Shown here in pieces: positions 1,770-3,954 of a stretch of 6,600 nucleotides of DNA. The position numbers and the translations under genes were made by a program. The number at the start of each line of letters is the position of its first letter. Within the stretch, counting starts at the first letter, position 1. The stretch comes from Phycisphaerae bacterium (GTDB lineage Bacteria > Planctomycetota > Phycisphaerae > Sedimentisphaerales > SG8-4). The notes beneath the pieces were generated by a model. That model worked only from the letters and a program-made list of their open reading frames with translations, was not told the DNA's origin and searched no databases. The stretch covers positions 1-6,600 of the forward strand of contig JAUXAH010000104.1 of assembly GCA_030614945.1 (NCBI GenBank), in the 5' to 3' direction.

Positions 1770-1883
1770 TTACAGCGTATCCGTCGTGCAAGAGCACCGG
1801 CTAGATAGTAGTCTAAATATATTGCCGAAGAAAGATTCCAAAACTCCGGCACAATCAGCACACCACTGAACCTCCGTGCTCAG
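1770..1883 (-). pseudogene. relic of a duplicated small ORF (homologue of the 68-aa gene at 2781-2575)
   Basis: The sequence just after the 232-aa gene's stop aligns, without gaps at an 898-bp offset, with the first part of the 68-aa small ORF. Both read EVQW-x(3)-CAGVL early on, and then FF..IFR. In this copy the position of the TTG start is CTG (1883-1881), overlapping the preceding TGA. An in-frame TAG lies 6 nt upstream, and the frame ends at TAA 1772-1770 after 37 codons, so there is no ordinary start and about 30 C-terminal residues are missing. The match fades beyond about position 1811, so the last 13 or so codons are unrelated. It could still be translated from CTG or from an internal TTG, but decay after duplication is the simpler reading. 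Confidence 0.5.
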
Positions 1884-2181
1884 CCGCTATGTTTACTCTT
1901 GCGCGCAGTCCTTACTGTCAACTCCTTTATTGCCTGGCACTGGATATCCTTACCGTAAAGATTGCCTTCATCCACCGCATACACCTTAAGCGCGTTGCCG
2001 TCAATCTCATTCAGTTGTTCCCTGCGAAGCAGCTCATTAAAATTAAGCTCCCGCATCGCCACGTCGTTTTCATCACCGCCTTTGGTATCCTCAACGATGC
2101 TCAACAGCAAATCCAGCCCTAACAGCTCCATACCGCTGTGCAAATCTTTCCCTCTTTCCTTCGCCGGCTTATCCTTCAGCT
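1811..2181 (-). repeat. copy 2 of a 371-bp direct duplication (C-terminal domain plus small-ORF start)
   Basis: This segment matches 2709-3079 at a constant offset of 898 bp, with no indels seen by eye and roughly 75-80% base identity. It covers the last part of the 232-aa gene, its TGA stop (same place in both copies) and about 70 bp beyond. The match ends near 1811 on one side and near 2181 on the other, where the two proteins' N-terminal halves become unrelated. The divergence means the duplication is old. Confidence 0.85.
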
Positions 2182-2578
2182 CTTTGAGAGGTTTACCGAT
2201 AAGTTCCCTGGGTTCATCGACGTGGGCCTCCATTGCCGGAGCTAAGGATGGTAATTTTACTTCTTCCAGTGGTTTTGGGCCGTGAAGTCGTATCTCTCGT
2301 ATTTTGGTCACGGGTTTCTGCGTAACGGCTTTGCTCCGGGCAGTATCTCTGGGGCTCAGTTGGATTTGCCAGTGCCACCGGCGCTGAGTGCCTGGGCTGC
2401 CGGTGTCCTCAGGGTAGTCCTGCTGCTGGTCTTTGAGCTTCTTTGCTCTTGTTTTGAGCAGACTGTATATCCCCCAGGAAGCCACTATCATCACCAGGAC
2501 CAGCATTTGCATCCAGACAGTATCCTCCCCCTCGCTGTTGCCGGCAGCCAGGATTGTTTGTATTAGAAGGCCGTTCAT
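1880..2578 (-). CDS. membrane-anchored hypothetical protein with duplicated C-terminal domain (232 aa)
   Basis: I do not recognise the family. A short N-terminus (1-20) is followed by one membrane segment at about 21-41 (VWMQMLVLVMIVASWGIYSLL) and the basic stretch KTRAKKLK. By the positive-inside rule the C-terminal 190 residues should be cytoplasmic. Residues 45-138 are charged, Pro-rich and probably disordered. Residues 139-232 form a conserved domain shared with the 135-aa protein upstream: about 70 of the last 92 residues are identical. Landmarks are ERGKDLHSGMELL, LLSIVE-x-TKG, DENDV, LNFNE-x-LRR, EGNLYGKDIQC and a basic tail. The start is fixed at ATG 2578: an in-frame TAA lies 12 nt upstream and no good Shine-Dalgarno is seen. 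The ATG overlaps the stop of the 68-aa ORF (ATGA), so translation is probably coupled. An anchored version paired with a soluble paralogue suggests the two work together (inference). Confidence 0.82.
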   Translation of the reverse strand: MNGLLIQTILAAGNSEGEDTVWMQMLVLVMIVASWGIYSLLKTRAKKLKDQQQDYPEDTGSPGTQRRWHWQIQLSPRDTARSKAVTQKPVTKIREIRLHGPKPLEEVKLPSLAPAMEAHVDEPRELIGKPLKELKDKPAKERGKDLHSGMELLGLDLLLSIVEDTKGGDENDVAMRELNFNELLRREQLNEIDGNALKVYAVDEGNLYGKDIQCQAIKELTVRTARKSKHSG

Positions 2579-2781
2579 AGTTCTTTCTTATGGCCCCCCT
2601 CGATATTTACTGTGCTTGGCTCGGATGCTTCCAGGTACCAGCCTATTTCGCCAGAGAGGCTGGTGCAGGCAGGTCCGGTTACAGGAACGTTGTAGCCGCC
2701 GGAGCGTGGTCTGAATATATCGGCGAAGAAAAACTTCAAAACTCCGGCACAGCTGGCGTACCACTGAACCTCCGTCCTCAA
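2575..2781 (-). CDS. small hypothetical protein (68 aa), translationally linked to both neighbours
   Basis: This frame begins at TTG (2781-2779), overlapping the TGA of the 135-aa gene as TTGA. It ends at TGA (2577-2575), overlapping the ATG of the 232-aa gene as ATGA. Such paired 4-nt overlaps are typical of coupled genes. An in-frame TAA lies 9 nt before the TTG and no ATG or GTG follows, so TTG is the only sensible full-length start; no Shine-Dalgarno is evident. The protein begins with an aromatic, partly hydrophobic segment (EVQWYASCAGVLKFFFADIF, about residues 4-23) and continues with a Gly/Pro/Thr-rich part ending GGHKKEL. No membrane helix is clear and I recognise no family. A degraded copy follows the 232-aa gene. 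The overlap pattern is the main support; chance cannot be ruled out because 200 bp lacks any other gene. Confidence 0.55.
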   Translation of the reverse strand: MRTEVQWYASCAGVLKFFFADIFRPRSGGYNVPVTGPACTSLSGEIGWYLEASEPSTVNIEGGHKKEL

Positions 2782-3079
2782 CTTTTGCGTTTACTCTTAT
2801 GCGCGGTCCTCGTTGTCAGCTCCTTCATTGCCTCACACTGGATATCCTTACCGTAAAGATTACCCTCGTTTATCGCGTACACCGCGAGCGAATGGCTGTC
2901 GGCCTCGTTCAGTTGGTCCCGGCGAAGCATCTCATTAAAATTAAGCTTCCGCATCGTCACGTCGTTCTCATCATCGCCTTTGGTATTCTCAACAATGCTC
3001 AACAGGAAATCCAGCTCTAACAGTTCCATACCGCTGTGCAAATCTTTGCCTCTTTCCCTGGCCAGCTCATCTTTCGGCT
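2709..3079 (-). repeat. copy 1 of the 371-bp direct duplication
   Basis: This is the partner of 1811-2181 (offset 898 bp, no indels seen). It spans the C-terminal domain of the 135-aa gene, its TGA at 2780-2778 and the first 24 or so codons of the 68-aa ORF. Because sequence after the stop is retained about as well as the coding part, the duplicated unit included the small ORF's beginning. Confidence 0.85.
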
Positions 3080-3185
3080 TCTCCTCGCCGGCCGCCTCAG
3101 AAGGGCCTTTGCCTGATGCTCGCACCTCGACAACTTTACCCGGTGCCATCCTTTTCGTTTTTTCGCTTGTACTATTCCAAGCCAT
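2778..3185 (-). CDS. soluble hypothetical protein, paralogue of the C-terminal domain of the 232-aa protein (135 aa)
   Basis: The frame is open to a TTG at 3206, but the start is better placed at ATG 3185 (MAWNSTSEKT). GGAGGT at 3198-3193 sits 7 nt before that ATG, whereas the TTG has no ribosome site. Residues 1-41 are charged, Lys/Glu/Ser-rich and probably disordered. Residues 42-135 are the domain shared with the 232-aa protein, including GKDLHSGMELL, LLSIVENTKG, DDENDV, LNFNEMLRR, EGNLYGKDIQC and a basic tail (KSKRKS). There is no signal peptide or membrane segment, so it is probably cytoplasmic. It is the first gene of the chained cassette and lies about 100 bp downstream of a promoter candidate. 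I do not recognise the family. Good coding character and conservation against its paralogue make it a real gene; no function can be given. Confidence 0.82.
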   Translation of the reverse strand: MAWNSTSEKTKRMAPGKVVEVRASGKGPSEAAGEEKPKDELARERGKDLHSGMELLELDFLLSIVENTKGDDENDVTMRKLNFNEMLRRDQLNEADSHSLAVYAINEGNLYGKDIQCEAMKELTTRTAHKSKRKS

Positions 3186-3192
3186 CCTTTGT

Positions 3193-3198
3193 ACCTCC
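3193..3198 (-). promoter_or_regulatory. ribosome binding site that decides the start of the 135-aa gene
   Basis: On the minus strand GGAGGT is followed by 7 nt and then ATG at 3185. It favours ATG over the upstream TTG at 3206 and shortens the protein by seven residues. Confidence 0.8.
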
Positions 3199-3489: not shown

Positions 3490-3954
3490 TTACTGTATAT
3501 TATAAAAGTAACCTATTATGCATCCTTTATGTGTGCCAATATTGGGACTCTTTACGAGCTTCAACGTTTCATTTTCATCCACCAAGACACACCTATCAGG
3601 AAAATCTGCAAGATAGGTACCAAAAACATTTAAATCCACAAAAAGATTGTCGTTTACAGTTAAATCGTCAAACTCGTCTGTCCAGGCCAGCTTCAATAAG
3701 ACGAATCGTTTGCCTGTTGGGACAGTAAGAAGTGTTTCGGCAGAACTTGCACCTGTAAATTCAAAGCACTGAATATAGCCTTCCCTTTCAGTAATCCCGC
3801 TTGAAGCAATGTTATAGATGTCATCAAGTGTCTTCATCGTGGGCGCCGGTGGCGCCGTTGGGTTCAATTCGCCGGCTATTGCGAATAGTGAAAAACCCAA
3901 CAGCCCACACAAAACTATTGCTATTATGCAAATTGTCAAATTGCTGGTTCTCAT
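3490..3954 (-). CDS. small exported protein with PPAPTMKTLDDIY-type N-terminus (154 aa)
   Basis: A clear Sec signal peptide is present: MRTSN, a hydrophobic core at about 7-24, and an AIA cleavage site after residue 27, giving a mature protein starting GELN. The mature N-terminus NPTAPPAPTMKTLDDIYNI resembles a motif I recall from many secreted proteins of Planctomycetota and similar environmental bacteria. The remaining 95 or so residues look like a compact beta-rich domain (FVLLKLAWTDEF, NLFVDLNVFGTYLADFP, CVLVDENETLKLV, CIIGYFYNI) with three mature Cys (63, 122, 145). There is no lipobox, so it should be free in the periplasm or outside. The start is ATG 3954, with AAGGAG at 3962-3967 and 7 nt spacing. 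It has its own promoter candidate at 4090-4118 and appears monocistronic. Function is unknown. Confidence 0.85.
   Translation of the reverse strand: MRTSNLTICIIAIVLCGLLGFSLFAIAGELNPTAPPAPTMKTLDDIYNIASSGITEREGYIQCFEFTGASSAETLLTVPTGKRFVLLKLAWTDEFDDLTVNDNLFVDLNVFGTYLADFPDRCVLVDENETLKLVKSPNIGTHKGCIIGYFYNIQ

Follow-up and report, generated by a model that had tools for sequence, protein, structure and literature searches.

The locus analysed here, which had been described as a chain of three small genes, is in our reading a two-gene module. It encodes a soluble protein of 135 amino acids and a membrane-anchored protein of 232 amino acids that share a C-terminal helical domain, and the DNA separating them is very probably not translated. 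We hold this reading, together with the role at the membrane and the placement at FloA patches that sequence comparison suggests for it, to be somewhat on the probable side. The family is unnamed and occurs mainly in Phycisphaerae; the gene pair itself is an unnamed lineage-specific pair, an ordinary kind of discovery, and none of the papers listed in searches of an open-access library deals with it. A doubtful small protein is in this way replaced by something that can be tested: an unnamed family of some thousand protein clusters with free and anchored forms. Moreover, if the floA lead described below is true, the pair becomes a candidate client or adaptor for flotillin patches, which to our knowledge have been little studied in planctomycetes.

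Organization of the locus

The window, that is, the whole stretch of 6,600 nucleotides analysed, has its nearest relatives among genome contigs in two Phycisphaerae bacterium MAGs, L001 and L002. Its features are:

6548-4293, minus strand: gene of an HDOD/histidine-kinase protein
3954-3490, minus strand: gene of a 154-aa protein whose N-terminus is signal-like, located upstream of the soluble/anchored pair
2778..3185, minus strand: soluble 135-aa gene
2706..3079, minus strand: repeat copy 1 (soluble-gene domain, stop codon and 72 nt of 3' flank)
2575..2781, minus strand: 68-aa open frame, judged very probably non-coding
2725..2745, minus strand: core of the conserved element (GGAGTTTTGAAGTTTTTCTTC), at 33-53 nt past the 135-aa stop codon
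1880..2578, minus strand: anchored 232-aa gene
2432..2578, minus strand: codons 1-49 of the anchored gene, a membrane module shared with a floA-linked small membrane protein
1808..2181, minus strand: repeat copy 2 (anchored-gene domain, stop codon and 72 nt of 3' flank)
1738-914, minus strand: gene of a DUF748/AsmA-type protein
786-1, minus strand: gene of an AMP-binding enzyme, running off the window end

The 154-aa protein (3490-3954) gave no match above the cut-off in a Pfam scan. Direct reading of the sequence bears out the 4-nt overlaps reported in the first-pass annotation (TTGA at 2781-2778 and ATGA at 2578-2575), as well as the in-frame stop, which begins 12 nt upstream of the starts of both the 232-aa gene and the 68-aa frame. 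The weak ribosome site described for the 232-aa gene was also found by reading, as just weak purine-rich sequence near the start, and the 135-aa gene has a good site (GGAGG at 3194-3198, 8 nt before the ATG). The same annotation had seen in this arrangement a compact multi-protein module; the soluble and the membrane-anchored proteins with their common domain stand, but the third gene is not supported.

The soluble gene precedes the anchored one in all 18 loci that were laid out (the window and 17 others). The very close spacing of the two conserved genes is not kept in the relatives: with start codons picked by us, all 17 other loci have gaps within 24-199 nt, of which three measure 24, 25 and 31 nt. 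In L010 the second gene corresponds to the N-terminal part of the anchored gene alone; this locus, a soluble gene followed by the N-terminal fragment, lies on the G004 chromosome about 230 kb from L004, an anchored gene without a soluble neighbour.

A conserved operon including outside neighbours was rejected, as the largest cluster of neighbours besides the family itself comprised 4 loci in a comparison of 35 (the window and 34 others), made with a crude gene call on loci of which some were short and a few came from the same genome.

A shared domain of an unnamed family

The C-terminal domain claimed to be common to the 135-aa and 232-aa proteins is clearly present, with 79 of 130 residues identical (61%). 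It spans roughly 85 residues and is predicted to form four helices with a pLDDT of about 90 or more. In the 135-aa protein, whose orthologues in L001 and L002 are 94% identical, the four-helix domain follows an N-terminal tail of about 48 residues that is predicted with low confidence and probably disordered; in the 232-aa protein it follows a membrane module (residues 1-49) and a long low-confidence linker.

That no well-studied family lies behind this domain agrees with our searches. Neither protein matched a profile of Pfam, NCBIfam or PADLOC, and the 135-aa protein and the four-helix domain had no match in PHROGs either; PHROGs gave two weak matches without a known function (E 0.0022 and 0.011), both confined to the membrane anchor. 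A profile search returned 1,013 protein clusters at E<=0.01, and among the best 120 of these 1,013 none has a Pfam domain. Foldseek gave no match at E<=0.001 in a fold search, the PDB gave no clear relative by sequence (the sole match had E 0.68), and none of 86 pattern matches was viral.

The domain was found in 38 of 161 genomes of the order and in 26 of 397 genomes spread over the class. By our own tally from match coordinates, the 38 genomes comprise 22 with two adjacent copies, three with two non-adjacent copies and 13 with a single match, the one in G017 being at a contig edge. The single-gene forms keep an N-terminal W motif and a long linker. A contig titled Candidatus Kuenenia stuttgartiensis (L019 / L065) also bears a single-form member; a locus in G095, a genome of the same order as G002, has the same gene coordinates and an equal protein, so that the title probably reflects a MAG that was misnamed.

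In a tree of 42 domains the soluble, anchored and single forms cluster, with 5 label changes against 18.5 in shuffles (a value as low was found in 0 of 200). The soluble group needs 3 label changes and the anchored group 5; of the 39 inner branches 11 are well supported and 19 weak, and the position of the window's anchored copy is not firm.

The 3' end of the anchored gene

The two repeat copies are identical at 307 of 374 nt and extend 72 nt beyond both stop codons. Since the repeat passes both stops, the 3' flank of the 232-aa gene also contains, as a partial copy, the sequence that opens the 68-aa frame. For the two genes of L001 and L002, similarity ends ahead of the stop codon. When the 441-bp end of the window's anchored gene was compared with soluble genes, it was 84% identical over 369 nt to that of G001, stop and flank included, and 82% over 374 nt to that of G002, flank included; compared with anchored genes, it was 86% identical over 292-295 nt, up to the stop only. 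Going by these alignments, the anchored gene of the window has a 3' flank of the soluble-gene type. As likeness is about equal within the domain, the switch point, somewhere in the last codons, is not closely placeable.

Such a flank may be due either to natural recombination or to an assembly chimera, in which two strains were joined inside the repeated domain, the anchored gene coming from one strain and the tail, the flank and the AsmA gene from another. A chimera, which would concern only the end of the anchored gene and is compatible with the other readings discussed here, is possible, and we lean against it. It would account for a soluble-type flank in the window where L001, L002 and L137 (G017) differ in tail and following gene, L137 having the anchored tail of L001 and L002 and then the same following gene; the AsmA homologue of G002, moreover, lies on another contig. 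However, within the domain the tail is about equally like anchored (86%) and soluble genes, and its divergence from the soluble gene of the window is about 18%, which speaks against a simple collapse of identical copies. In addition, almost the same tail occurs on another anchored protein from the database (P0019), so that recombinants of this kind may be natural.

In near relatives (L002:5649-7844, and L137) the gene directly after the anchored one encodes a DUF5060-type protein with a signal-like start, and not an AsmA-type protein.

A floA-type anchor and the proposed function of the pair

Membrane helices may resemble one another by chance. Residues 1-49 of the anchored protein, and nothing beyond them, align with the alignment of a floA-linked small membrane protein (A6) with an hhalign probability of 98.5, an E-value of 3.5e-15 and 43% identity, and this match also takes in residues on either side of the helix. 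The alignment of soluble and single forms (A2) gave no match to A6, which is a weak control because these forms have no membrane segment.

The floA-linked protein emerged from a whole-profile search of 16 genomes, 11 of which have a further, separate gene that shares the N-terminus only. This gene (L068-L078) lies directly after floA in 11 of the 11 loci examined, in two of which (L071 and L077) floA is cut by the contig end, while one (L076) has a less similar floA (59%). The identification as FloA relies on PF12127 for two copies, on NF010186 for one and on likeness for the rest. The small membrane protein itself received no Pfam or NCBIfam name in the one copy scanned, and it has a C-terminal stretch of the LKRAILHYEILG type in ten aligned copies. 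In a wider set 70 of 148 genomes matched, many by the N-terminal stretch only. Among the seven window proteins scanned with Pfam there is no FloA.

From the likeness of its anchor, the anchored protein would probably be placed at FloA patches together with a cytosolic partner. The first gene yields a soluble protein and the second the same helical domain tethered to the membrane by a floA-type N-terminal module; the shared domain may bind a common partner or pair with its sister copy. Through the anchored copy, the soluble one or a partner common to both would then be brought to the membrane, with FloA patches as the probable site, and the intergenic element described below might affect the ratio of free to anchored protein. 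Taken as a whole, a planctomycete-specific FloA-patch adaptor pair of this kind, with a free and an anchored domain, a floA-type anchor and a cis element that sets their ratio, is a tentative proposal with a rather small chance of being right in every part.

The two genes could instead be lineage-specific paralogues with independent jobs, their tandem arrangement a leftover of duplication and the likeness of the anchor irrelevant to location. The tree, in which soluble and anchored domains are mostly apart as in old paralogues, fits such an origin, as do the single domain match in 13 of the 38 genomes and the lack of conserved neighbours outside the pair; against it stands the adjacency kept in 22 of the 38 despite wide sequence divergence. 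We consider independent paralogues unlikely, while granting them a serious share of the probability.

A conserved element between the two genes

The region between the two genes contains an element whose 21-nt core, AGAGTTTTGAAGTTTTTCTTC, was found with <=3 mismatches in 7 of 12 genomes, once in each and always in the gap between the soluble and the anchored gene, whereas the reversed core pattern, used as a control, was found in 2 of 12. Among the 18 loci, 10 have the core (<=4 mismatches) and 8 lack it (>=8 mismatches). In those that have it, it lies 19-50 nt after the soluble stop and at varying distances from the anchored start.

Fifteen intergenic regions (the window and 14 others; L015, L016 and L057, with gaps <35 nt, were left out) were aligned locally in pairs, and the scores were above those of all 100 shuffles for most cross-species pairs among L003, L008, L009, L011, L012, L014, L053 and the window group. 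No resemblance to the window group was seen for the gaps of L005, L007 and L017, and only some for those of L006 and L010.

We also considered a structured RNA, and found no support for it: the consensus fold reached -5.83 kcal/mol with a positive, that is, unfavourable, covariation term (0.42), even though 4 of its 15 pairs changed on both sides, and single folds had z-values of -1.08 to 0.87 in nine loci. No Rfam match to the element was obtained up to E 1, and a scan for promoters and terminators found one of each, against 2.8 and 2.6 expected. The element would most likely be a cis signal that affects expression of the anchored gene.

The 68-aa frame is very probably non-coding

The 68-aa frame had been taken for the middle gene of the three. 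In L001 it is interrupted by a TGA at codon 36 while both neighbouring genes are kept, an observation that the first-pass annotation had named as one that would refute its reading. The frame does not look coding and, like the rest of the DNA between the two genes, it is very probably untranslated. The window, L001 and L002 align without gaps over the 207 bases of the frame. Changes at first, second and third codon positions were distributed as follows, with those of the 135-aa gene for comparison:

Window and L001: 11, 11 and 13 in the 68-aa frame; 6, 3 and 20 in the 135-aa gene
Window and L002: 5, 4 and 9 in the 68-aa frame; 8, 2 and 13 in the 135-aa gene
L001 and L002: 7, 11 and 8 in the 68-aa frame; 6, 1 and 17 in the 135-aa gene

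One of these comparisons is counter-evidence to the non-coding reading, namely that of the window with L002, where 9 of the 18 changes in the frame fall at third positions. Among the three sequences omega was 0.54-0.72 in the frame versus 0.08-0.16 in the 135-aa gene, and it was not clearly below what this DNA gives in its other two frames (0.38-1.75).

A second test covered the first 22 codons in the ten element-bearing taxa of the 18 loci, the other 8 loci being left out. The pooled dN/dS was 0.95 (0.91 in a seven-taxon subset), a value inside the 5-95% range of a column-shuffle control (0.59-1.30); conservation in this stretch therefore looks like conservation of nucleotides, not of a protein. 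As for the frame itself, one of such length and composition was open in 4.5% of 20,000 mononucleotide shuffles. A frame starting with ATG, GTG or TTG near the first stop and closing in a 4-nt overlap with the anchored gene occurs in one of the 17 other loci (L002); in L003 and L011 a 43-codon ATG frame ends just before the start of the anchored gene.

Other peptides from the same DNA were rejected as well. The next frame, which in the window ends in GTPAVPEF and a stop, seemed suggestive on inspection, but its omega of 0.73 is within the shuffle range, and in L003, L011 and L012 its register does not agree with that of the soluble gene. The third forward frame has an omega of 0.53, just below the 5% point of 0.59, but is interrupted by stops in 8 of 10 taxa. 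On the antisense strand the three frames gave 0.75, 1.11 and 0.61, none under the 5% point, with stops in 1, 8 and 4 of 10 taxa, respectively.

It is very improbable that the middle frame encodes a genuine small protein that evolves fast, starts at NTG and is coupled by reinitiation to its neighbours. An NTG start is indeed found in all ten element-bearing taxa (ATG in 2, TTG in 3, CTG in 5) and the first 22 codons are free of stops in all ten; the frame is intact in L002, it closes on the ATG of the anchored gene in the window, L002, L008 and L014 (in the last two from a CTG start), and the databases include two predicted proteins that align with all 68 residues, at 96% and 78%. However, besides the TGA in L001 there is a TAA inside the frame in L053, half of the ten starts would be CTG, and the length ranges from 32 to 68 codons in the 9 of 10 taxa where the frame closes within the stretch shown. 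There is, moreover, no clear codon-position signal, the omega of 0.95 was obtained on the 22 most conserved codons, and the core element is missing from 8 of the 18 loci. We thus retain the non-coding reading of the frame.

Spacing of the genes and reinitiation

Termination-reinitiation had been proposed to chain all three genes. The chain loses its middle link in a frame without clear purifying selection, and most gaps between the two remaining genes in relatives (24-199 nt) exceed the 22-38 nt at which reinitiation was largely or wholly lost in two organisms. PMC10666635 reports that a distance of 22-23 nt abolished coupling in H. volcanii, and that in E. coli 38 nt cut it by at least 80%. 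As the gaps are mostly above these reported coupling distances, reinitiation between the soluble and the anchored gene is unlikely, a conclusion tempered by an earlier reporter study, cited in the introduction of the same paper, in which coupling was seen over 150-850 nt. The 4-nt overlaps would then be a feature of the window's lineage rather than a mark of reinitiation.

Comparison with known systems

Reinitiation-coupled overlapping gene pairs, as described in PMC6728339 and PMC10666635, share with the window the 4-nt TTGA and ATGA overlaps; unlike those pairs, the window has a middle frame that is not coding-like, and its relatives are gapped by 24-199 nt. Compared with helical-repeat proteins (EMC2, Fis1 and designed armadillo repeats, which appeared as VIA-align rows), the predicted domain has no counterpart that stands out. 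With the floA-linked family the 232-aa protein has in common the N-terminal membrane module, without the C-terminal stretch of the LKRAILHYEILG type. The floA-linked gene lies directly after floA, whereas the window pair is not beside it; and where the floA-linked protein ends in a stretch of the DPDxLKRAILHYEILGxPLSLR type, the 232-aa protein ends in the four-helix domain.
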